From an uncultured Deferribacteraceae bacterium (GTDB lineage: Bacteria > Chrysiogenota > Deferribacteres > Deferribacterales > Mucispirillaceae): a stretch of 43,865 nucleotides of DNA. Position numbers and translations under genes: made by a program. The notes beneath the pieces are model-generated. The model was not told where the DNA came from, made no database searches, and saw only the letters and a program-made list of their open reading frames with translations. The stretch spans positions 1 through 43,865 of the forward strand of contig CAMRDM010000006.1 of the NCBI GenBank assembly GCA_947041225.1, given 5' to 3'. Position 1 is the first letter of the stretch; each line of letters opens with the position of its first letter. Positions 7,308 through 43,865 of this stretch are shown here, piece by piece.

Positions 7308-7745
7308 CTATGTAGCAGCAAAGAGAGATCTCTTTATCGGAAAAACATCATTATCAAGTATAATTTGTTTAGCAATTTTTTTATCTAAATTTATGATAAG
7401 AGGAGCTCTTAAATTTGCTGTAGATTTGGTTGGATCTTCAGGAATAACGACAATAGAAAAGATTTTCATATTTTCTATATCCTCAATGCTTAACACTTTC
7501 ATTTCACGTTTAGGAATAGTTGGTTCATAATCTGTGAAAAATTTTGTAGCCTCTACAAGAATAAAACAGATGTCATTATTTTCTACGGACTGAAACCATA
7601 TAAATGGATACGATGATTCATTAGAAATCAATAGAAATTCATTTAATTCATTAAAACCTAGTAGCGGAGAACAAAGAGTTACCACATCGTTCTCACTATA
7701 CTCTATCTCTCCCAACTTAGCAGAGTTTATCTTTAGGATAGACAT
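7308..7745 (-). CDS. fliW: Flagellar assembly factor FliW
   Basis: The 145-residue protein has the FliW fold and motifs: an early LGEIEY strand, the [13 protein letters not shown] segment, [10 protein letters not shown] near the middle, and the late [20 protein letters not shown] block that in this family contacts CsrA and flagellin. The frame opens at a GTG at 7751, but that codon overlaps the ribosome site GAGGTG; the ATG at 7745 is correctly spaced. FliW binds unexported flagellin or CsrA, so flagellin build-up frees CsrA to repress flagellin translation. It directly precedes csrA with an 11-base gap, the classical arrangement. Confidence 0.93.
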
Positions 7746-7809
7746 ACACACCTCATAAAAAAATTGTTAATTCGCACATTTTACTGCTCTTCTATACAAA
7801 AAAGTTAAG

Positions 7810-10800
7810 TTACCTTAAAAAATCTATTAATGATATTTGGAACATTTTACTAGTGATCATTAAAGCTGTCTCATAAGCAGACTTAGCAAGTGCTTGATCA
7901 GTCATCGCAGCTGCAAGATCTTGTGGAGTTGATCCAAGGTAAGTTGATTTAGTTGTTTCATTTGCAGCAATCACAGTAGTATGGAAATTAGTTACAGACT
8001 CAGCTTTAGATAACTTACTACCAATTGCAGCTTCAGCTTTCAAGAGTTGTTTCTCTATTTGATCAAGATAGTCTATCTGTTCATCTATACCTGTTCCAAC
8101 AGCTACATCGAAAGTATTTGTTGCGTTTAATGTTCCTTTGTTGAAACTTAGATATAAACCATCAGCAACATATGTAGATTCACCAGCAGTCCTTACGGTA
8201 ACTTCTTGAATAGTTCCACCATTTTCTGATGCAACACGTATTTTTACCTCATCACCAGCTTTAGGAAAACCTAACGTACCATCATGATCGCTCTCAACAG
8301 ATAAACTACTCATCATAGTAGGATCGGTTGTAAATGCTAGTTTTCCTTGATTATCAAGTTTTGCATCAAGCCCTGCAAGATCAGGATCTAATGCTATTAA
8401 TCTATTGATCTCAGCAGTGAGAGCATCTTTAGTAGCATAATCTTTTTTATCCAACAGAATAGATTTGCTTCGTTGAGTACCATTTGAATCGATATAATTA
8501 AAAGTTAATGTTCTAGCTGCATCAGTTTTATCTGAAAGATCAGTATCAGGATTTTCAGAAGATGTAGCAGCTATCATAGTACCTGTATCAGAAGTTGTAA
8601 TTCCTAACTCTCTATTACCGTATGATTCAGCAAGCGAACCTTTAGTTGCACCATTATAGTTATTGAATATTAATGCACCCGTATCTGGATCTAATTCAGC
8701 TTTAACTCTCCCTGCTGTAGAAGTAGTCAACTCTGCGTTAACAGCAGTTAGTAGCTCCTCTTTCGTAGCATATGTTGCAGGAGCAGGTAAAGTAATCCTT
8801 TTAGATGGGTTTGCAGGATCTCCTATATCAGTTATATAGAAATCTGTATCAGTTAACGTTAACGGATAACTGGTATCTGGTAACGGCTGATTTCTTAACG
8901 GCTCAAAACCCATGATGAAATTGCTTAAAACATTTTTATTTGCATTAGCTGGAAGTGCACCGAGGTTTTCTGTAAATGAGACTATTTTTGTTCCATCATT
9001 AGAATCCATCTTTATCTTTCCATTTTCAGAAATGAAGGTAATACCTTGATCTTTAAGTGCTGGATTATTATTTAGTTCTTTAACTATATATGCGTTAGTT
9101 GATGCAGCATCAGTTAATGGAGGAGAAGCTTGTGATAGATCTAGATCTATATTTACAGTTGAGCTTTTACCAGTAATATTATCATACATATTAACGCCGA
9201 ACGATATTTCACTACCTAAATCATTAATTAGATTTTGATCGAAAGCTGTTGTACCAGATATTGAGTAAGACTCATTTTGTATATAGAAATCATCTTTAGT
9301 ACCGTTTTGTAATGTTTCAAATGTCCAGTTATCGTTATAATTACCTTTATAAATTCCATCAAAGTATGGACTAGCAGTTGATCCAAGTGATGAGTTTGCC
9401 CAAGGATTATCTTTATTAAATAGAGTGAAACCATTTTCTGTAATATTATATTTTAAGGCATGTTCTAAATTCGTTAATACTCTAAATAAGTTATCGTTAC
9501 TTCCATCATCAGAAACTTTCATTACACCAAACGATACTTTAGTATCATCAATAAGATCTATCTTAAATGATGTTGTTAAGGTTGTTTCAGGAGGTGTTGG
9601 AAATTGGTTATCATTAGGAGTAATTGTAACACCACTCGGTAAAGTTATCTCTCCACCAAGATAGTTATTAACTTTTTGGTTGTATACTTCAACGCCATTA
9701 ATATCTTTAATAGAGATATGGACATTTTTAGTACCATCAACACCCACAGAGGTGGTCATATCAACACCCCAAGTAACATCCCCTTGTCCACGGTATTTTC
9801 CACCAATTACAAGATCGTTATCGATATTAGATTGAAGTCCAGACTCTGTTGAGTTTTGAAAGAAAGTTAATTTACTGTTTTCACCACTACGAAGATCTTT
9901 TACCTCTATCTTACCATTAACCAATGAAACTTTTGCAGTGTCACCGTATAGATCATTTAAGAACTTTATATAGTCGCCCATAGTAGTATTGTTATGTCCG
10001 GGAGTTTGTTTAATAGTTGGTATATCCGTCTGCATATCTTTAAAAGGTGGAACAGCATTATTATCGATATAAACGGTATTGATCTGAGTTGAGTCGTTAA
10101 TATTGTTATTAACAACAGCAAATGATATATCAAATTTACCAAGATCGTTAGGATCAGAGCTATTTACAGAATTTAATGATGAAGATATATCACCTTTAAA
10201 TCCAGCTGAATTAAGTGCAGATTGCAGTTCAAACTCTATGTCTTTCTTAGTAGGAGCAGTAGCACTATTAAGATTAACAGTGTATACTCCACCAGTTTGA
10301 GATAATGATACAGAGTTACTTCCACCAAATCCAGAATCTATAAGTTTTTGATTTATTATTTTTTCTTGTTCGGCAACTGTTTTACCGTTAAGTTCAGCAG
10401 AAGGAACTACAATATTTTTACCACCTATTGTGATATTGAAATCGTTTGTTCCGTTATATCCAGTAGTCGCTGAAACATCTGTAGTAGTTATAGGCCCTCT
10501 TGCAGGAAGATTTACAGAAACGGGTTTACCGTTAATAAAGAAATCAAACTTTCCACCAGCAGAGAAATCTACATTAGAGTGAGTAGTGCTAATATTTTCT
10601 ATACCACTATTATTATATGTTGTTCCGAAGTCAAATTGAGTATCTTTACCTTCTGCAACTGTTACTCCACTTGTAAAACCTAAACTCATTCCTCCAGATC
10701 CTGATACAGCAAGTTGAACATTATCTCCTGCTTTGTTTGTGTAGAAAGATAATCTATCGCCATCAGAAGTAACTGTAACATCTTGTGAAAGATCTACTGT

Positions 10801-12156
10801 TTTTTTCTCTTCATCCCCAGTTGCTGGAGTAAAGTAACCACTATCAATCTGTTGTTCAATTGAGTTTTTAAAATCATTAAGTTCATCATATCCTTCAGCA
10901 GGAACATTTATAGAACCGATATATTCAGCGTTTTTTAACTGTTCTTGTACAGCTTCGGCTAATTTTTCAGCTGACTGATAATCTCCTTGAGGGATAACAA
11001 CTTGATACATCTTATTACCGTATGCAACTTTTAAAGTTCTCTCTTCGTCACTTGTTTGTGTATGATCTAGTTTAGGATTAACAGGAGATACGATATTTGC
11101 AGAACCTATAGGTCTACCTTGACTATCTGTTCCAGAGACGTTCATAGAGTCGCCAGTAGCAAATTTATTTCCATCAAGATCAGCTAGCAGAGTTGAAAGA
11201 TTAACTAATGAACCGTTAGCAGTTAACACTTTTGTTGATAGCAATGTCTTAAACGATTGCATAAAAATATCAGCACCAGGAGTGTTGATTGCAAGGTTTT
11301 GATCGTATCCTATCTGTGCTAATATAGATCCCATATCGCCAGCATAACTAACTTCAGATCCAGCTTTATAATTAAATCCAACAGTCATTTGAGTGTTTAC
11401 ATGTTCTTCATCAGGCATTTGAATTGAGAAACCTAAGCCAGTATTTACAACTTTACCTGGTTCATACTTAAAAGATAATGTAGTAGATGTAGCGTTACCT
11501 TTCTGGTTTGCTTCATCAGATCCATTAGAATCAAGAACAACTGGTTTCCCGTTAGAATCAACTATACTTACAGTTGCGATACCGTTAACAACACTTATAT
11601 TAGTTTTATAAGTTCCAGAGGCTAGCTCTCCCATATCTGAAAACACAGGTTTAGTAGCTATACCGTTAGAGTCAAGCGAACTTGTTGATACATTCGATAT
11701 CACGCTTCCACCACCTGAAAATGGAGGTACATCTGTTTGAAATCCACCAAATACATATCTACCAAGATAGCTATTATTAGCGTGTGCCATAAGACCATCC
11801 ATTATCGATGCGACTTCTTTTGCCATAGCAGCTCTTGCATCTGCATCATTTGTTGCATTTGCACCACCAATTGCAAAATCAGCTTTAACTTGTTTAATTT
11901 TCTCTAAAGCATCTTTCAAAATTGTATCACTATTTGCGATCCAACCAGTTGCAGACTCACCATTCTCTTTAAACTGGTTAAGCTCATCAATCGTTCTTTG
12001 TATGTTATAAGCAGAAACATATCCCGATGCATTGTTTTCAGGCTTCAACAGATCTTGTTGAGCGTTAACTCTGTCCCCAGCTTCAAGCATACGAGCCAAT
12101 GAGTTACCTATTGAGCTATTGTACTTCATCGACATCATGTTAAATGTAATTCTCAT
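7810..12156 (-). CDS. flgL: Giant hook-associated protein 3 (hook-filament junction)
   Basis: The protein is 1448 residues, against about 300-400 for usual FlgL. The conserved ends are normal. The N-terminus starts MRITFNMMSMKYN, includes the helix NIQRTIDELNQFKENGESA and extends to SYLGRYVFGGFQTD near 140. The C-terminus (about 1340-1448) holds the IDYLDQIEKQLLKAE and STPQDLAAAMTDQ helices, ending IDFLR. Between them are about 1200 residues of Gly/Ser/Thr/Asn/Asp-rich beta modules. At least two resemble each other: YATKEELLTAVN at 1129 and YATKDALTAEIN at 1240, with a looser relative YQSAEKLAEAVQ near 393, like flagellin IN-type modules. The frame is uninterrupted. AAAGG lies nine bases before the ATG. 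It follows flgK, and its insertion would lie on the surface of the junction. Confidence 0.93.
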   Translation of the reverse strand: MRITFNMMSMKYNSSIGNSLARMLEAGDRVNAQQDLLKPENNASGYVSAYNIQRTIDELNQFKENGESATGWIANSDTILKDALEKIKQVKADFAIGGANATNDADARAAMAKEVASIMDGLMAHANNSYLGRYVFGGFQTDVPPFSGGGSVISNVSTSSLDSNGIATKPVFSDMGELASGTYKTNISVVNGIATVSIVDSNGKPVVLDSNGSDEANQKGNATSTTLSFKYEPGKVVNTGLGFSIQMPDEEHVNTQMTVGFNYKAGSEVSYAGDMGSILAQIGYDQNLAINTPGADIFMQSFKTLLSTKVLTANGSLVNLSTLLADLDGNKFATGDSMNVSGTDSQGRPIGSANIVSPVNPKLDHTQTSDEERTLKVAYGNKMYQVVIPQGDYQSAEKLAEAVQEQLKNAEYIGSINVPAEGYDELNDFKNSIEQQIDSGYFTPATGDEEKKTVDLSQDVTVTSDGDRLSFYTNKAGDNVQLAVSGSGGMSLGFTSGVTVAEGKDTQFDFGTTYNNSGIENISTTHSNVDFSAGGKFDFFINGKPVSVNLPARGPITTTDVSATTGYNGTNDFNITIGGKNIVVPSAELNGKTVAEQEKIINQKLIDSGFGGSNSVSLSQTGGVYTVNLNSATAPTKKDIEFELQSALNSAGFKGDISSSLNSVNSSDPNDLGKFDISFAVVNNNINDSTQINTVYIDNNAVPPFKDMQTDIPTIKQTPGHNNTTMGDYIKFLNDLYGDTAKVSLVNGKIEVKDLRSGENSKLTFFQNSTESGLQSNIDNDLVIGGKYRGQGDVTWGVDMTTSVGVDGTKNVHISIKDINGVEVYNQKVNNYLGGEITLPSGVTITPNDNQFPTPPETTLTTSFKIDLIDDTKVSFGVMKVSDDGSNDNLFRVLTNLEHALKYNITENGFTLFNKDNPWANSSLGSTASPYFDGIYKGNYNDNWTFETLQNGTKDDFYIQNESYSISGTTAFDQNLINDLGSEISFGVNMYDNITGKSSTVNIDLDLSQASPPLTDAASTNAYIVKELNNNPALKDQGITFISENGKIKMDSNDGTKIVSFTENLGALPANANKNVLSNFIMGFEPLRNQPLPDTSYPLTLTDTDFYITDIGDPANPSKRITLPAPATYATKEELLTAVNAELTTSTAGRVKAELDPDTGALIFNNYNGATKGSLAESYGNRELGITTSDTGTMIAATSSENPDTDLSDKTDAARTLTFNYIDSNGTQRSKSILLDKKDYATKDALTAEINRLIALDPDLAGLDAKLDNQGKLAFTTDPTMMSSLSVESDHDGTLGFPKAGDEVKIRVASENGGTIQEVTVRTAGESTYVADGLYLSFNKGTLNATNTFDVAVGTGIDEQIDYLDQIEKQLLKAEAAIGSKLSKAESVTNFHTTVIAANETTKSTYLGSTPQDLAAAMTDQALAKSAYETALMITSKMFQISLIDFLR

Positions 12157-12250: not shown

Positions 12251-13999
12251 TTAAGCACCTAAACCGTTTACGACAGTATTAATCATCTCATCAATAACAT
12301 TTATATATCTTGAATTTGCTTCAAAAGTTCTTTGAAATAGAGTCATGTTGGTTAATTCTTCAAACTCACTTACACCTCTAACACTTTCATTTCTCATAAC
12401 ACTTTGCTGATATGATAACTCTTTAGTTTTCGTAAAAGTGTCAATTTGTGATTTATCAGAGGCTAGTACACCTATAAAGAAACCGTAAGCCTCACCAAGT
12501 GTTCTACCAGATGTTCCATCTAAAGATTTGAATTGTAGTCCTGCGATAGCTTTTGCAATACTATTATCACCTGGTGCACCTGATGAACCTGTTGCTATAT
12601 ATTCTGGATCATTTTGTATCAATGCAGATATATCGATATCTTTTGCCGATGTACCTGAAAAGAATGCATTTAGTCCAGCTGCTGCTAAAAAGCCTGATGT
12701 ATCTGCTGAGAAACCGAATGTGTTTCCTGATGTAGAAAATATATCTATTCCATTATCTTCATTGATAGTAGATCCTAACATACCACCTGATGCTGTATTT
12801 ATTTTACTAGATATCGAAGCTAATGTATCTGATGCAGGATCAACATCAATAGTTACAGTATTTATAACTGCACCTGAGTTATCGTAAACATCGATTGAAA
12901 ACGATCCTTTAGAAATATCAAACGGTAGCTTTCCAGCTACATTATCGAATGGTAATATAGAGTTACCGACAGAGTTAGAACTTGTTATTTGATCGAAACG
13001 TAGTAATCCTTGTCCTACTGCATGTACTTTATTTGTTTCACTTATAAGTGCTCTTGCAAGAACATCAAGTTCTCCAAGATATCCTTCTAAAAGTTCATCT
13101 CTAGTTTTGATATCTCCAGCCATAGATCCACCGATTAGACTATCAGTAATATTAGTCGGTTCGGCATTACTTATAGTACCTACTCCTAAAACAGGCTTGA
13201 AGTATATATCAATTGATCCATCTTTGTCAGGATTAGGTTTAGCTTCAAGCAGATGAGATGTATCTCTATCAACAACAACTTGTCCACCTATAAATACAGT
13301 TACCTGTCCGTTTTCGCTTTCATTAGTAGTAACTGTTGCAAATGTTGAAAGTTGATCTAGGAGAAGATCCCTTTGATCTCTTAAATCATTTGCGGAGCCA
13401 CCACCTATTTCAGATGTCATAATAGATGCGTTTAATATCGCTATGTTAGCGGTGATATCATTGATCTGTTTAACATTACTGACAAGTCTTATATCTATGT
13501 TATTTTGTACTGCTTCTATTGATCCGTATCCTTCTCTTAACTGTCTTGCAAGAGTTTCAGATTGCTCTAATAGAGCATATCGTTTTACGGCAGCTTCATC
13601 GGTATTATCAGGAGATGTTGAAGAAAGTTCTTGCCAAGCCCCAAAAAATTTTTTCAATGGATCACCTAAACCAGCACCAGGTTCTAACTCGTTAAAGTAT
13701 AACATTGCTTCGCCTAAACTATTTTGCATAGAACCAAAATAATTATAAGAAGAACTTTCTCTTCTTACAGCTTTAGCTAATAGATCGTTATGTGCTCTTT
13801 CAATACCAGTTACTTCAACACCAGTTCCCATAGGTCCATAGACTGTAGGGCGTGGTTGTTTTGATTGGATACTAACCATTTGTCTAGAATATCCAGGTGT
13901 TCTCAAGTTATTTAAGTTATTACCAACGACATCCATAGCAACTTGAGAAGCCATGATACCAGACACGCCAGTGTATAACATTCCAAAAAGATTACTCAT
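12251..13999 (-). CDS. flgK: Hook-associated protein 1
   Basis: The 582-residue protein is of ordinary FlgK length. It opens with LYTGVSGIMASQVAMDVVGN and NLNNLRTPGYSRQMV (the rod/hook family signature with N-x-x-TPGYSR). Next come long coiled segments (EAVQNNIDIRLVSNVKQIN), GGSANDLRDQRDLLLDQL near 200-217, and a central beta domain. The C-terminal helix block is SEFEELTNMTLFQRTFEANSRYINVIDEM. FlgK forms the first hook-filament junction ring. AAGGAGT lies nine bases upstream. It lies 31 bases after its chaperone gene flgN and precedes flgL. Unlike FlgL, it has no giant insertion. Confidence 0.96.
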   Translation of the reverse strand: MSNLFGMLYTGVSGIMASQVAMDVVGNNLNNLRTPGYSRQMVSIQSKQPRPTVYGPMGTGVEVTGIERAHNDLLAKAVRRESSSYNYFGSMQNSLGEAMLYFNELEPGAGLGDPLKKFFGAWQELSSTSPDNTDEAAVKRYALLEQSETLARQLREGYGSIEAVQNNIDIRLVSNVKQINDITANIAILNASIMTSEIGGGSANDLRDQRDLLLDQLSTFATVTTNESENGQVTVFIGGQVVVDRDTSHLLEAKPNPDKDGSIDIYFKPVLGVGTISNAEPTNITDSLIGGSMAGDIKTRDELLEGYLGELDVLARALISETNKVHAVGQGLLRFDQITSSNSVGNSILPFDNVAGKLPFDISKGSFSIDVYDNSGAVINTVTIDVDPASDTLASISSKINTASGGMLGSTINEDNGIDIFSTSGNTFGFSADTSGFLAAAGLNAFFSGTSAKDIDISALIQNDPEYIATGSSGAPGDNSIAKAIAGLQFKSLDGTSGRTLGEAYGFFIGVLASDKSQIDTFTKTKELSYQQSVMRNESVRGVSEFEELTNMTLFQRTFEANSRYINVIDEMINTVVNGLGA

Positions 14000-14030: not shown

Positions 14031-14504
14031 TCAGCCCATTATATGGACAGAAGATGCAGAGTTGTTTGACTTTTTTTTATCATAAGTGTTGCTAGAAAGT
14101 ATACCTAGCTGTGTGTATAGATCATTCATAACTTTTATATTTGTTGAATAAAGAATTTTTAACGCGATAGATTCGTTATTAATTCCAACGACTATCTTGT
14201 CGAACTGTTTTTTAATATCAATTAGTTCATCTTTATCTTCTTCAGGAGCAACCTTTATAATAGCAGACAGAGTATTATCATGAGCATTTAATTCAGTTTT
14301 CACTCTCTCGGCTAGAGATTTTCTAGCTTCCTCTAATACCCTTTCTTTATTGATAAGTTTCTCTTTTTTTGCTAAAAGGCTGTTTGTTTCAGTAAAATTC
14401 CATGAGACTATCGCATCTTTCTCTTTAGCTAACACGTCAATGATATCTGTGTATAAAGAAATTTGCGATCTGAGTAACTCTTTTAGAGTATTGATTGATG
14501 CCAT
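14031..14504 (-). CDS. flgN: Flagellar export chaperone FlgN
   Basis: The 157-residue, almost all-helical, charged protein has the FlgN pattern: an N-terminal LKELLRSQISLYTDIIDVLAKEKDAIV helix, then LLAKKEKLINKERVLEEARK, and a C-terminal coiled helix (IKVMNDLYTQLGIL) that in other species binds FlgK and FlgL tails. The last residues are disordered and basic. The ribosome site is very strong (GAGGAGGT). Placement between flgM and flgK is the standard order and supports the call, as FlgN sequences are weakly conserved. Here its cargo would include the giant FlgL. Confidence 0.85.
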   Translation of the reverse strand: MASINTLKELLRSQISLYTDIIDVLAKEKDAIVSWNFTETNSLLAKKEKLINKERVLEEARKSLAERVKTELNAHDNTLSAIIKVAPEEDKDELIDIKKQFDKIVVGINNESIALKILYSTNIKVMNDLYTQLGILSSNTYDKKKSNNSASSVHIMG

Positions 14505-23281: not shown

Positions 23282-25480
23282 TTAACCTTTTCTACTAAAA
23301 TATGCAAGTTTGATCGATCTTAAAATCAGCATAAGAATAAACATCACTATAAAATAATCGCCAGTTGAACCGATCATACAACCGAAATATGCAACAACAG
23401 GAGATTTTATTTCAGGCTCGCTAATAGCGTTATTTCCGTATGCGTCATCGAACTCGGTTTGTGCTTCTACAGCAGTTGCTCCTCTACCAGTGAGCGTTAC
23501 ACGATGAGTGGTTCTAGTATTATTTAAATGAGTTATATTAAACGCACTGTTGTAATCCATATAATTTGTAGGTGTAAATATAAAGGCTAAATTACAACTC
23601 TCACCTTGTTGAAGTATAGTTGATGAACTACAACTTGTATGAGTTTGATTAAGTGAAAATATTTCATTATCGTTAAATGTATGATTAAACATCAAACTTC
23701 CACCACCTGCGTTTCTAATATTCACTTTAACTATGTTAGAGATTGTAGAGGCTTCAGTTTTATTAAAATTAATATTATCTTTATGAACAATCATTTTTCC
23801 AGGAGATGTATCGTTGAATACCGTTTTATCAGCTACAGTATTGTATCTAACAATATTTACATTATTATCATTTTTATTAGGATTAGCTAATACAGTGTAT
23901 TCTGGTATAAGTCCACGTCCACCGTATGCAAACCCTCTATGGAACTGTACAAACGGAGTGTATATTGAGTTTTTAACACCTCTAATTCTATAGTATTGAT
24001 ATGTGTATCTAGTAGCATTAGGAATTTTATCGTAATATGTGTTAACTCCAGCAGGCAATCTATCAAGTAATCTAAAATCATCAGAGTGTTTAGATTTAGC
24101 CCATATCTCTGTTTGAGCAGTTTCATCTATATTCCAGCTTAATCTAACTGAAGCGTTTGTTTTATCAACTTTATCAACTTTAAAATTTGATGGAGAAGCG
24201 TAGAGTGCATTTGTGTTAAACGTTAATAATTTATTTAGATCAAGTACACCGTTCGCCATAGAGAACAGTTCTTGTTCGCTAGATACAGCAACAGTTGCAG
24301 AGTTCACAATAATCTGTTCAATTTGAGCAGGTGTAAGGTAAGGTTTTAGCGATAGAAGTAAAGCAACCGATCCAGCAACTATAGGTGTCGCCATTGAAGT
24401 TCCAGATTTAAAGTTATATGAATTAGACTCGCTAGATGAATTATGACTTTTAACTGTGCTTATGATACCACTTCCAGGTGCAAAAATATGTACAGATGTT
24501 TTGCCGTATGATGAGGCAGCCGAACCATCAACACTCCATACAGATCTTTTAGAACTACTATTAGATGCACCAACAGAGATCAATCCTCTAAGAGGATACG
24601 CAGTAGGGTATGATGGTTGCCAGTCGTTATTACTATTCTCATTTCCAGCGGCAGCAATAACAACAATCCCGTGATCGATAGCTTTTTTTACAGCATCGTA
24701 TTCAGCTTGAGACGCATGATTTATATCTCCACCTAGTGATGCGTTAATAACTCGAACGCCTCTATATATAGCGTAATCTATCGCTTGTATAATGTTAGAT
24801 ATATTACCTGTACCTGTACTATCTAACGCCTTAGCAGAGAGTAGTCGTACACTCCAAGCAACTCCAGTTGATCCGATACCGTTATCACCTTCAGCACCGA
24901 TAATCCCACCAACATGAGTTCCATGTCCATGATCGTCGTAACCCATGTTAATACCTGTTCTTTGATTGATTGTATCTGTTCCGTTATTGTAAATATTAAA
25001 CCTAAGATCTTCATGTCTAAAGTCCATTCCAGTATCCATAACAGCAACGGTAACATCAGGAGCAGTTGAGATTATATCCCATGCTTTTTCAGCATTAATA
25101 CCTCCATTTTGTTTAAACTGATAGTTTGTTATAGATTGATTAGTTCTATAGTAGTAATCGTTAGGTAGAGTTTCCATTGTTCGAACAACATAATCTGGGT
25201 GTATGTACTCTACATTATCGTTTGATCTCAATAGATCTATCACTTGATCGCTACTTTCAACATTGATAAGAAATGTATTATCTGTTAAATATATGGGTAT
25301 AGCTAGAGTACTAGTTGATACAAGTTTATTATTAATATCTAATATTGATGCCATCGCTGCGACGCCATTTTTATATTTTACTATTAGCTGTTCGCCACTA
25401 TTTTTAGCGTACGCATTTTTAATTACTAGCACATTTATAGTTAATATTATAATCACAATACTTACTGTTATTTTTTTCAT
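23282..25480 (-). CDS. Secreted subtilisin-like (S8) protease with C-terminal anchor
   Basis: The 732-residue protein has a signal peptide (1-25), an inhibitor-like propeptide to about 110 (LIVKYKNGV; VEYIHPDYVV), and a complete S8 domain. The catalytic Asp149 is in AVMDTGMD, His186 in DDHGHGTHVGG, the oxyanion Asn280 in AAAGNEN, and Ser362 in SGTSMATPIVAG. A fibronectin-like region (about 430-530) and a choice-of-anchor D-like beta domain (about 585-690, with CSSSTILQQGESCNLAF) follow. The C-terminus is GCMIGSTGDY, a hydrophobic helix and a basic tail ending SRKG, resembling a C-terminal sorting or anchor signal. It is probably exported and held at the surface. AAGGTG lies four bases before the ATG. 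Confidence 0.92.
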   Translation of the reverse strand: MKKITVSIVIIILTINVLVIKNAYAKNSGEQLIVKYKNGVAAMASILDINNKLVSTSTLAIPIYLTDNTFLINVESSDQVIDLLRSNDNVEYIHPDYVVRTMETLPNDYYYRTNQSITNYQFKQNGGINAEKAWDIISTAPDVTVAVMDTGMDFRHEDLRFNIYNNGTDTINQRTGINMGYDDHGHGTHVGGIIGAEGDNGIGSTGVAWSVRLLSAKALDSTGTGNISNIIQAIDYAIYRGVRVINASLGGDINHASQAEYDAVKKAIDHGIVVIAAAGNENSNNDWQPSYPTAYPLRGLISVGASNSSSKRSVWSVDGSAASSYGKTSVHIFAPGSGIISTVKSHNSSSESNSYNFKSGTSMATPIVAGSVALLLSLKPYLTPAQIEQIIVNSATVAVSSEQELFSMANGVLDLNKLLTFNTNALYASPSNFKVDKVDKTNASVRLSWNIDETAQTEIWAKSKHSDDFRLLDRLPAGVNTYYDKIPNATRYTYQYYRIRGVKNSIYTPFVQFHRGFAYGGRGLIPEYTVLANPNKNDNNVNIVRYNTVADKTVFNDTSPGKMIVHKDNINFNKTEASTISNIVKVNIRNAGGGSLMFNHTFNDNEIFSLNQTHTSCSSSTILQQGESCNLAFIFTPTNYMDYNSAFNITHLNNTRTTHRVTLTGRGATAVEAQTEFDDAYGNNAISEPEIKSPVVAYFGCMIGSTGDYFIVMFILMLILRSIKLAYFSRKG

Positions 25481-39296: not shown

Positions 39297-42008
39297 ATGG
39301 CATTCACACTAGTATCTAACCCGACAGCGATTTCGGGCCAGGGAGCAATACGCTCTGCAAACAACAATTTAACAACAACAATCAAACAATTATCAACGGG
39401 TCTTAGGATTAATTCAGCGGCAGATGACGCATCGGGTCTTGCTGTATCGGAGAAATTAAGAGGTCAGATTTCAGGATTAACAGTAGCATCACGAAACGCA
39501 CAAGATGCAATATCTTATCTCCAAACGGCGGAAGCTGCTATGGGAACTATGATTAGTATGGTTCAAAGGGTAAGGGAGTTAGGTGTACAAGCTGGAGATC
39601 CTGCATACACAGTAAACGATAGAGTTATCCTTCAAACAGAAGTAAACGAGCTTTTAGATGAAATTAATAGAGTGTCAGATTCAGCGGAGTTTAATACAAA
39701 GAAGTTATTAAATGGTGATGCTGCAGCATTGTGGTCAGCAACACAAGGAATTGAGGCATTAGTTCATGGCTCTACAGTAAATGGAAACTATAATATTGAA
39801 ACTACAATGAATCCTGGCAAGAATAATATTTATAAAACAAATATTATGACAGTTGGAGCAGGTAATATATCATTTGATATGGATAATGCTGTAGGCATAA
39901 ATAGATTAGATGATATTAAAGGCGTGCTAACAGATGCCAATAAAGATATTAATATTATTGTAGGAAAGGGTAGTGCTGCTGCAACAGTGGGAGTAGCTTC
40001 AACAACAGTTGCTGCTGGTAGCAATGTAGCAGTTGCAGGTGCAACAGAAACAGCAGTAGCTAATATTGTTGTAGATGGTTCATTTCAAATGGAGATGGAA
40101 GTAGTCAAAGATGTTGCAGATACAAATGGAGTGAACGTAGTTGATGGTGCAATAAGATTTAGGATTACTAATTTAGCAACAGGCGAAGTAGGCGAGTGGA
40201 TGAACATGAAAGTTTTTGATGGTACTGGAGCTACTGATTTAACCATCTCTGCTGATGCGACTACAATGTCGAAAGCGTTTGCTTCAGCAGGACTAGTTAC
40301 TACAAGCCCATTTACCTTAGCATCAGGTGGAGGAGTTACGATAGGTGAGGAATCTACAATTACTAGAATATTAGCAACGGATTCGTATATTAGTAACACA
40401 GGTATAACAACAATAGGTAACTTTGGAGATATGTCAGCTGGTGTTGCAGGTATGAATGGTGCAGGTACTTCTATTTTAGGAGGCTCGATAGTCTTTGAGA
40501 TGGAGGCAATGAGCGATAAAGTAACTGCGGGTTCAGGTTCATTTAAATACCGTATAACAAACATGGAAACGGGCATTCAAAGTGGTTGGTATGAAAGTAT
40601 TTCACTTAATGCGAATGGTCAGGTTGTTGTATCAGCAGGTGGATCATTTGGATCAGCTGCTTTAAATGATGTAGGTTTATCAGGATCGATATTTCAATCT
40701 GGTGCTACAACTTTAACATCACCAGCGTTTGGTCAGGGAGATAAAATTTTATTTGGTATTGGCGGCAAGAGTCTTGTTAATGGACTTCCTACTGATCTTA
40801 CAGATTATGCGACAGTTAAGTTTGGCGATGGTCCAGGAGTTGTATTGAAAGATCCAGTATCAGATAAAGAGGATAAACCAAATAAGATTTATACAGCACA
40901 AATGGATGCTTCAGGCAAAGTTTATTACGGTTCAATGGATTTAACATTTTCTAAAGGATCTGTAATTACTACTGGAGTAACAACAGTAAATTTATTAGGT
41001 GAAGGTGATGCGGCCTCACTGTATACAGAACTTCGTCAGATAGCAAGTTTTACCAATGCAGATGGCAGAATGTTATTAGATAATACTAGAGACCTTACAA
41101 TATATGGTAACAATACTAAGACAGATATTAGTCTAGAAGGCACTGATACGATAAAGGATCTTGAAACTAAGTTTAGTGATGCGATTATTGAGGCGCTAGG
41201 TTTAGGTTCAACGGGTCCAGGCGTAAACCATAATTTAGTTAAGTTTATCGGTAAAGATGAGGCAGTAGCTGGTTCAGATAGAGCAGTAAACGGAACATTT
41301 GTTATTCAAGGTGCAGCGATAGGTAAAGAGTCTGAATTATTTTTCTCATCAGATCAGGCTATTTTATCAGCACTAGGAATGGCTAAGATACAAGAAGGTA
41401 TAGGTTCAGAAATTACAGCGACTGTTAGGGATGCACACACGAATGAATTTATAGGTCAAGACACGATTACCGATGGTATTCTACGAGGCATTATCGAAAA
41501 TGTAGATGTTAAGTTAGATCAAACAATAGGATCTACGACAGTATGGGATGATGTATTAAAGAAGTTGAAATTTGAACCAAATGGGGTATCGATATCTACA
41601 CTTCACTTAGTAAACAATCCTACGATAGCAGCAATTGGAGCAAATGAGGGTCAGTTATTAGATATATCAATAGGTAGACTTGACACAACGACATTGAATT
41701 TAAATAATCTATCAGTGATTAGTATAGAGGATTCTCAGAAAGCAATTACGAAGGCAGATCAAGCGTTAGATAGTATAAATCAGACAAGAGCGGTATTAGG
41801 AGCTCAGATGAATAGGTTAGATTATACGATTTCGAATTTAGATGTAGCAAGAGAGAACATGGCGATAGCCGATTCACGCATGAGAGAGTTAGATATAGCA
41901 GAAGCGTCAACACGCCTAGCATCACAGCAGACGATTTTACAAGCAGCGTCAGCGATGTTAGCACAAGCGAACCAGTTACCTAGCTATGCAATGCAGTTAT
42001 TACAATAA
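39297..42008 (+). CDS. fliC: Large flagellin 1 (903 aa)
   Basis: The conserved flagellin ends are intact. The N-terminus (1-140) has LSTGLRINSAADDASGLAVS, NAQDAISYLQTAEAAMG, and the D1 motif MVQRVRELGVQAGD. The C-terminus (about 812-903) has AVLGAQMNRLDYTISNLDVA, then ENMAIADSRMRELDIAEAST, and ends SYAMQLLQ. The 670-residue middle is a long surface domain, against about 200-300 residues in ordinary flagellins. It contains a duplicated module: GSFQMEMEV...FRITNLATGEVGEW from 261 and GSIVFEMEA...YRITNMETGIQSGW from 396. No cysteine is present, as usual for export. The filament would be thick or decorated. It is secreted by the flagellar type III system and probably regulated by FliW-CsrA and sigma-28. 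Confidence 0.96.
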   Translation: MAFTLVSNPTAISGQGAIRSANNNLTTTIKQLSTGLRINSAADDASGLAVSEKLRGQISGLTVASRNAQDAISYLQTAEAAMGTMISMVQRVRELGVQAGDPAYTVNDRVILQTEVNELLDEINRVSDSAEFNTKKLLNGDAAALWSATQGIEALVHGSTVNGNYNIETTMNPGKNNIYKTNIMTVGAGNISFDMDNAVGINRLDDIKGVLTDANKDINIIVGKGSAAATVGVASTTVAAGSNVAVAGATETAVANIVVDGSFQMEMEVVKDVADTNGVNVVDGAIRFRITNLATGEVGEWMNMKVFDGTGATDLTISADATTMSKAFASAGLVTTSPFTLASGGGVTIGEESTITRILATDSYISNTGITTIGNFGDMSAGVAGMNGAGTSILGGSIVFEMEAMSDKVTAGSGSFKYRITNMETGIQSGWYESISLNANGQVVVSAGGSFGSAALNDVGLSGSIFQSGATTLTSPAFGQGDKILFGIGGKSLVNGLPTDLTDYATVKFGDGPGVVLKDPVSDKEDKPNKIYTAQMDASGKVYYGSMDLTFSKGSVITTGVTTVNLLGEGDAASLYTELRQIASFTNADGRMLLDNTRDLTIYGNNTKTDISLEGTDTIKDLETKFSDAIIEALGLGSTGPGVNHNLVKFIGKDEAVAGSDRAVNGTFVIQGAAIGKESELFFSSDQAILSALGMAKIQEGIGSEITATVRDAHTNEFIGQDTITDGILRGIIENVDVKLDQTIGSTTVWDDVLKKLKFEPNGVSISTLHLVNNPTIAAIGANEGQLLDISIGRLDTTTLNLNNLSVISIEDSQKAITKADQALDSINQTRAVLGAQMNRLDYTISNLDVARENMAIADSRMRELDIAEASTRLASQQTILQAASAMLAQANQLPSYAMQLLQ

Positions 42009-42647: not shown

Positions 42648-43865
42648 ATGGCATTGTCAATTATCACAAACCCAACAGCATTAGTTGGACAAAGTGCGAC
42701 AAATCGAGCGAATAACAGCCTATCGAAAACGATAGGACAGTTATCAACAGGACTTAGAATTAACTCATCAGCAGATGACGCATCAGGATTAGCGGTTGCA
42801 GATAAGTTAGCAGGACAGATTTCAGGATTAGCAGTAGCAGCAAGAAACGCACAAGATGGTTTATCGTATCTCCAAACAGCAGAGGCTGCAATGGGAACGA
42901 TGACGAGCATGGTACAACGTATCAGAGAGTTAGCAGTTCAGGCAGGCGATCCTGCATATACTACGAATGATAGAGTTGTACTACAAACAGAGGTTGATCA
43001 GTTAATAGAAGAGATTGATAGAGTATCATCATCAGCCGAGTTTAACACAAAGAAGTTACTAAACGGAGACGCTTCGGCGTTATGGACAGCAACAGAAGGC
43101 ATTGAAGCGCTAGTAAGTGGTGCTGCAATAAGTGGTAACTATAATATTGAGACTAATATGAACCCAGGAAGTAACTATGTTTATAAGTCAAACATTATGG
43201 CAGTAGGTGCAGGCAAAACATCGTTTGATATGATTAGTGGTTCAGGTATAACTCGTCTAGATAATATAGAGGGCGTATTAACTGATTCTACAAAAGATAT
43301 CGGTATTGAGGTTGCAAATGCAACAGTAACAGCAGGAGGTGGTGGTGTAGATCTTTCTGGTAATACTTTAGCAAGCGCTGGGATAACAGGTGCTGCAGTA
43401 ACTGGCATGGTTGGAAGTGGTTCGTTTTCAGTAGAAGTGGAAGTATTGATGGATGTGGCAGATGCTGGTGGTACAGCAGCAGGCCCTAATACATCTGACG
43501 CTGCTAGATTTAGAATCACAAACCTTATAACAGGTGAAGTTGGTGAGTGGCAAATGATGGGGACCACGGATGCTGCTACTGCTACTGATTTAACCATATC
43601 TGCTACCTCTGCCGTAGTAAGTGCTGCATTTCAGTCAGCAGGGCTTGATAGTACGGGAAAATTTGAACTCGTTGTCAGTGCTGGAATGACAGTTGGTCAA
43701 GGTTTTACAGCTACAGTGATTTCTGCTGATGATAAAGTTATTAGTAATACTGGAAATTCTACTATCGGTTCATTTGGTAGTATGGCAACAACATCAGCTC
43801 TCCTAACTGGTCTAGGTAGTAATGTCATCGGTGGTTCAATAACGATGGAAATGGAAGCAACAGGT
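42648..43865 (+). CDS. fliC: Large flagellin 2, 3' end outside window
   Basis: An open frame of 406 codons runs from ATG 42648 to the window edge with no stop. It is a paralogue of flagellin 1. The N-terminus starts MALSIITNPTALVGQSATN and has LSTGLRINSSADDASGLAVA, then LSYLQTAEAAMGTMTSMVQR and IRELAVQAGDPAY. The variable part repeats the same module: GSFSVEVEV...FRITNLITGEVGEW from about 260, with the next copy beginning GGSITMEMEA just before the edge. It will therefore also exceed 800 residues if it follows flagellin 1. The ribosome site and leader match those of flagellin 1. The conserved N-terminal part is closer to flagellin 1 than the insertion is. Confidence 0.95.
   Translation, partial: MALSIITNPTALVGQSATNRANNSLSKTIGQLSTGLRINSSADDASGLAVADKLAGQISGLAVAARNAQDGLSYLQTAEAAMGTMTSMVQRIRELAVQAGDPAYTTNDRVVLQTEVDQLIEEIDRVSSSAEFNTKKLLNGDASALWTATEGIEALVSGAAISGNYNIETNMNPGSNYVYKSNIMAVGAGKTSFDMISGSGITRLDNIEGVLTDSTKDIGIEVANATVTAGGGGVDLSGNTLASAGITGAAVTGMVGSGSFSVEVEVLMDVADAGGTAAGPNTSDAARFRITNLITGEVGEWQMMGTTDAATATDLTISATSAVVSAAFQSAGLDSTGKFELVVSAGMTVGQGFTATVISADDKVISNTGNSTIGSFGSMATTSALLTGLGSNVIGGSITMEMEATG

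Follow-up and report, generated by a model that had tools for sequence, protein, structure and literature searches.

Within a stretch of 43,865 nucleotides from an uncultured Deferribacteraceae bacterium (contig CAMRDM010000006.1, assembly GCA_947041225.1; hereafter, the window), we examined the flgL gene, encoding the hook-filament junction protein FlgL. The open reading frame (7810-12156, minus strand) comprises 1448 codons in a single frame with zero internal stops, i.e., nearly fourfold the usual FlgL length. Enlargement of this kind extends throughout the phylum, where FlgL length rises with that of the hook protein FlgE—a phylum-wide link that is new. On the basis of this relationship, the extra mass, an insert of about 1200 residues predicted to fold as outer domains, is likely to build a thick collar by which the junction of hook and filament is braced against a hook of unusual thickness, a role that we favor on balance.

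The link emerged from open-frame lengths in the phylum genomes: FlgL from 41 of the 47 genomes with an enlarged gene (six with incomplete sequence at contig ends or N letters were left out), FlgE from the 38 genomes with a full frame among the matches listed (36 overlapping with FlgL) and, also among the matches listed, flagellin frames of at least 750, a threshold of our choice below which frames were omitted. At the genus level (n = 16), the Spearman correlation of FlgL length was 0.89 with FlgE, 0.61 with flagellin, 0.57 with FliD and 0.10 with FlgK. Independent contrasts on a tree of the FlgL ends (31 genomes, 26 with FlgE) retained the relationship with FlgE (r = 0.63, p = 6e-4, 25 contrasts) and revealed no link with FlgK (r = 0.06) or FliD (r = 0.09). 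On a FlgK tree, from which 4 of 31 rows shorter than 400 amino acids were omitted, the FlgL-FlgE correlation was 0.71 (p = 2.4e-4, 21 contrasts). It reached 0.75 (p = 0.002) when each genus was represented by a single genome, in runs that lack the chosen genome of genus g3 owing to this omission. Dropping seven families one at a time, with families f3, f5 and f8 kept in every run, left r at 0.65-0.83 over both trees, and the result survives correction for five comparisons. FlgK stays constant at 574-628 codons in 42 phylum genomes, and of the 16 genera for which FlgE was measured, 14 have FlgL as the longest among five axial proteins compared. In the genome under study, FlgE itself has 1438 amino acids (L060:5281-9594, contig C83); the Campylobacter FlgE, with 865, is described in an excerpt of PMC5069557 as among the longest. 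Residues 421-720 of this FlgE are nearly missing in 12 compared relatives (occupancy 4-12%) and residues 721-1020 are present in a quarter to two fifths of them; part of the extra stretch, judged by eye, consists of short repeats rich in Gly, Pro and Thr with the look of a β-helix or β-roll. FliD is also enlarged in family f9 (frames of 1336 and 1349 in G004:C40 and G005:C24), the other listed frames being at most 1020.

A reading made from the sequence alone had proposed that FlgL might be enlarged to match equally enlarged flagellins. In such a case, the insert would fit the outer domains of the filament and ease the transition to a filament that is thick or resembles a sheath. The three complete flagellins of this genome are indeed large (793, 799 and 903 amino acids), the best Foldseek match to the model of a relative, P0127, was a Geovibrio thiophilus flagellum deposited in the PDB (E = 1.6e-14; a literature search for this structure found no paper), and the genus rank correlation of 0.61 points the same way. 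Yet that correlation precedes tree correction: the contrasts left r = 0.09 (median flagellin length) and 0.14 (maximum), and the partial rank correlation given FlgE was 0.35 (p = 0.18). We therefore consider matching to the filament unlikely as the driver of FlgL size.

Enlarged FlgL was found in 47 of 50 phylum genomes, the one under study included, with named carriers among uncultured Deferribacteraceae, Seleniivibrio, Calditerrivibrio (FlgL of 1141 residues) and Deferribacter, names that we read as pointing to the phylum Deferribacterota. The 31 complete genes encode proteins of 1138-1532 amino acids. Uniqueness to the genome of the window, a possibility that the comparison with relatives also addressed, is thereby rejected, whereas the size remains exceptional when set against other bacteria. 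A 3226-codon frame in one relative proved to be a stretch of N letters and was discarded. As for the three genomes lacking a FlgL match, one is a 73% complete assembly and the other two, G015 and G017 of family f5, also lack matches to the flagellin, FliD, FlgE-type and FlgK families; flagella seem to have been lost in this pair because all of these families went unmatched, and their congener G016 keeps them.

The extra length does not sit at one place. Relative to P0127, the window protein carries additional stretches at residues 411-454, 554-635, 1007-1020 and 1086-1193, the last of which holds a repeat module termed B (see below). Across 31 proteins, the site of this module measures about 95-126 amino acids in families f1, f6, f7 and f9, some members of f1 and f7 reaching 174-190, and 3-23 in families f2-f5 and f10, while the region aligned to residues 457-550 spans 160-190 amino acids in f10 and f4 versus about 90 in most. 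Judged from these alignments, the lineages bear extra FlgL length at differing insertion points, in an unrooted comparison where gain and loss look alike. Such variation might reflect neutral growth, whereby outer domains duplicate and drift, and the hook and junction proteins of a lineage share a permissive history. In keeping with this idea, module B is a copy of another module (C) and is itself missing from the shortest forms, the sites of extra length vary by lineage and the variable blocks are only 2-24% identical between families. On the other hand, conservation across families extends over much of the middle (31-49% identity in blocks 145-384 and 28-42% in several later blocks), and FlgK and flagellin of the same cells show no co-variation with FlgL on the tree—a combination that makes purely neutral growth distinctly unlikely in our assessment.

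The protein is shown to be FlgL: it combines terminal D0/D1 regions of FlgL type, a position directly after flgK and the FlgL core fold. The best NCBIfam match was TIGR02550 (E = 4.7e-35, 121.7 bits over three stretches), slightly below the curated cut-off of 127.2 that four of six relatives scanned pass and two miss. All seven NCBIfam families matched are FlgL/HAP3 or hook-associated, with no flagellin family among them; Flagellin_N matched at residues 4-140, and Flagellin_C remained unmatched at E-values up to 1, a family passed by one relative, P0149 of Deferribacter desulfuricans. The N-terminal D0/D1 part covers residues 1-145 (11722-12156; Flagellin_N and TIGR02550, with an alignment to Salmonella FlgL 1-148), and the C-terminal D1/D0 part, residues 1343-1448 (7813-8130), occurs in 31 of 31 full-length genes, that of the window included, and is modeled as helical in P0127. 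The proposal of FlgL ends enclosing an insert of about 1200 residues thus holds up, with the insert placed at residues 146-1342 (8131-11721) of one intact frame. An assembly chimera, raised at the outset as a possible artifact, is ruled out because other assemblies hold full-length relatives at 78-81% identity and flgK lies upstream of flgL in all 31 phylum loci examined, this one included. In public databases, the FlgL proteins of Deferribacter and Seleniivibrio are labeled flagellin or hypothetical protein. Some entries named flagellin in Deferribacter look like junction proteins, which calls for caution on annotation, and a few mislabeled FlgLs of this sort could have entered catalogs of giant flagellins from Deferribacteres.

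The insert contains three copies of one module of about 95 residues, marked by the motifs YATKEELL at residue 1129, YATKDALT at 1240 and a relative, DYQSAEKL, at 392—positions that bear out the sequence-only reading. Module A (residues 360-498; 10663-11079) has an inner extension and aligns to module C at 98.9% probability; module B (residues 1105-1190; 8587-8844) lies within the segment 1086-1193 absent from P0127; and module C (residues 1202-1301; 8254-8553) has a predicted fold resembling the outer domain of Vibrio cholerae flagellins. Since the three align profile to profile at 96-99% probability, the repetition is above chance; a candidate fourth copy at 520-640 was rejected at 3.7%. The AlphaFold2 model of the insert (mean predicted local distance difference test score of 74.4, predicted template modeling score of 0.49) predicts a string of beta-rich domains with mixed beta and alpha elements, several of them resembling flagellar outer domains, and the strongest fold matches were flagellar proteins. 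Flagellin_IN (PF07196) passed its gathering score in two of five relatives scanned, P0155 (43.4 bits) and P0120 (24.8), although the window protein and its four pieces fell below it. DUF3244 (PF11589), already assigned in precomputed form to many relatives, scored 27.5 bits in P0120 (cut-off 25), 24.4 in P0106 and 18.1 in the window protein. Modules shared with other axial proteins of the same genome were sought as well. BLAST of FlgL against FlgE, FliD, FlgK and the flagellins gave none below E = 0.2, and pieces of FlgL compared with FlgE by profile reached at most 38% probability, such that an exchange of modules between FlgL and FlgE is unproven.

The same searches bear on the suggestion that the insert acts as a surface adhesin or shield, binding host mucus or surfaces, or hiding the joint from phages and antibodies. 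No adhesin family rose above its cut-off in family searches of the window protein, its four pieces and relatives, a negative that covers the listed families and is compatible with an unlisted fold. The top fold matches are flagellar, enlarged FlgL is present in Calditerrivibrio and Deferribacter, only about 11 copies are expected per flagellum and the link with FlgE would be left unexplained. With little evidence found in favor of adhesion, we regard such a role as quite unlikely.

How might a collar work? By homology, eleven FlgL copies would separate the FlgK ring from the filament, their helical ends building the core and the insert standing outside it; simple arithmetic puts the insert at about 128 kDa per copy and 1.4 MDa per ring of 11 copies. 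Because FlgL and FlgE are long or short together while FlgK stays constant, we infer that the outer FlgL domains meet the outer hook layers beyond the slim FlgK ring and could pass torque without tearing. Moving from co-variation to physical bracing is an inference on our part, as are the ring position, the contacts and the bracing role. Three observations weigh against a bracing collar: FlgK, which lies between the hook and FlgL, is unchanged in size; FlgL and FlgE sizes do not move in lockstep between genera; and the FlgL-FlgE link outside the phylum is weak, though present (Spearman 0.32, n = 116, with clear exceptions). More tentatively, and as a possibility that we would not bet on, a megadalton FlgL flange may extend beyond FlgK and interlock with the giant hook's outer shell, with hook and junction sizes co-selected for a torque-bearing seal that separate lineages would have achieved by inserting modules at different sites. 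To the matter of what determines outer-domain size in hook and junction proteins, this phylum adds a FlgL that tracks the hook protein and not FlgK or flagellin on the tree. A bracing collar predicts that junction width follows hook width, measurable species by species, and the natural FlgL series of 1138-1532 residues offers a test of how the junction is reinforced where a flexible tube meets a stiff one.

The locus is arranged as flgI, flgJ, flgM-like, flgN, flgK, flgL and fliW. Family searches confirmed flgK (12251-13999, minus strand, 582 amino acids, an ordinary size; TIGR02492, E = 2.4e-87) directly upstream of flgL, fliW (7308-7751, minus; PF02623, E = 1.8e-36) directly downstream and flgN (14031-14504, minus; PF05130, E = 4.4e-13), the FlgK/FlgL export chaperone, while flgI, flgJ and flgM were recognized by eye from their translations. 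Downstream fliW is found in 28 of the 31 phylum loci. Elsewhere in the window lie a complete flagellin gene (39297-42008), the beginning of a second one truncated by the contig end (about 42660-43865, plus strand) and a gene for a 732-residue protein (23282-25480, minus) with subtilisin-type catalytic motifs, noted by eye, and a hydrophobic C-terminal end.

Outside the phylum, 334 of the 384 genomes searched were surveyed; FlgL was matched in 138 and listed for 121, with a median of 381 amino acids and a maximum of 1228 among frames taken unreviewed, some of them possibly contig-cut or flagellin-like. Fifteen of these 121 reach at least 700 amino acids, four at least 1000 and one at least 1142. 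FlgE was searched in 132 non-phylum genomes with 124 matches, and 116 genomes had both proteins. In a database of 5.8 billion sequences, no FlgL beyond this family spans the insert among the matches listed (the best 120 of 131), one distant FlgL of 888 amino acids covering 10% of the query; distant relatives may be missed because the search scored the best word-sharing candidates at 0.55-1.75 of query length. From this sequence comparison, the large FlgLs of other bacteria probably grew independently.

Known junctions place these dimensions in context. In Salmonella, FlgK and FlgL each contribute a layer of 11 subunits whose D2 domains lie on the outside, a junction for which a part of PMC12221982 proposes stress buffering. 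FlgL (HAP3) has been described in Salmonella, Legionella, Xanthomonas and Bacillus, with no D2 in Bacillus and one D2 in Xanthomonas according to a section of PMC6155364, in contrast to the insert of about 1200 residues here. Giant flagellins, of which Deferribacteres are among the carriers listed in an extract of PMC6248924, are likewise axial proteins enlarged in outer domains; these are filament proteins in thousands of copies, whereas the FlgL described here is separate and its size unlinked to flagellin on the tree. Lengths given in portions of PMC5691160 are 317 for Salmonella FlgL and 750-950 in Campylobacter and relatives, where FlgK is thought to have diverged to fit the hook and FlgL bears a bulky D2. 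The 750-residue protein of Campylobacter jejuni (9gsx chains A/B, named flagellin in the entry and taken here to be FlgL) has such a D2 at half the present length; three stretches pass in a sequence-profile comparison with the window protein (best over residues 1-188), and since the root-mean-square deviation is 19.7, its domains are arranged differently. The D3/D4 domains of Campylobacter FlgE, reported in an excerpt of PMC5097172 to strengthen the hook, are another case of an axial protein extended by additional outer domains, differing in that they belong to the hook itself and that FlgL size is not measured against FlgE in that text. By analogy, the phylum looks like an extreme of the Campylobacter design—a giant hook protein, an ordinary FlgK and a giant FlgL.
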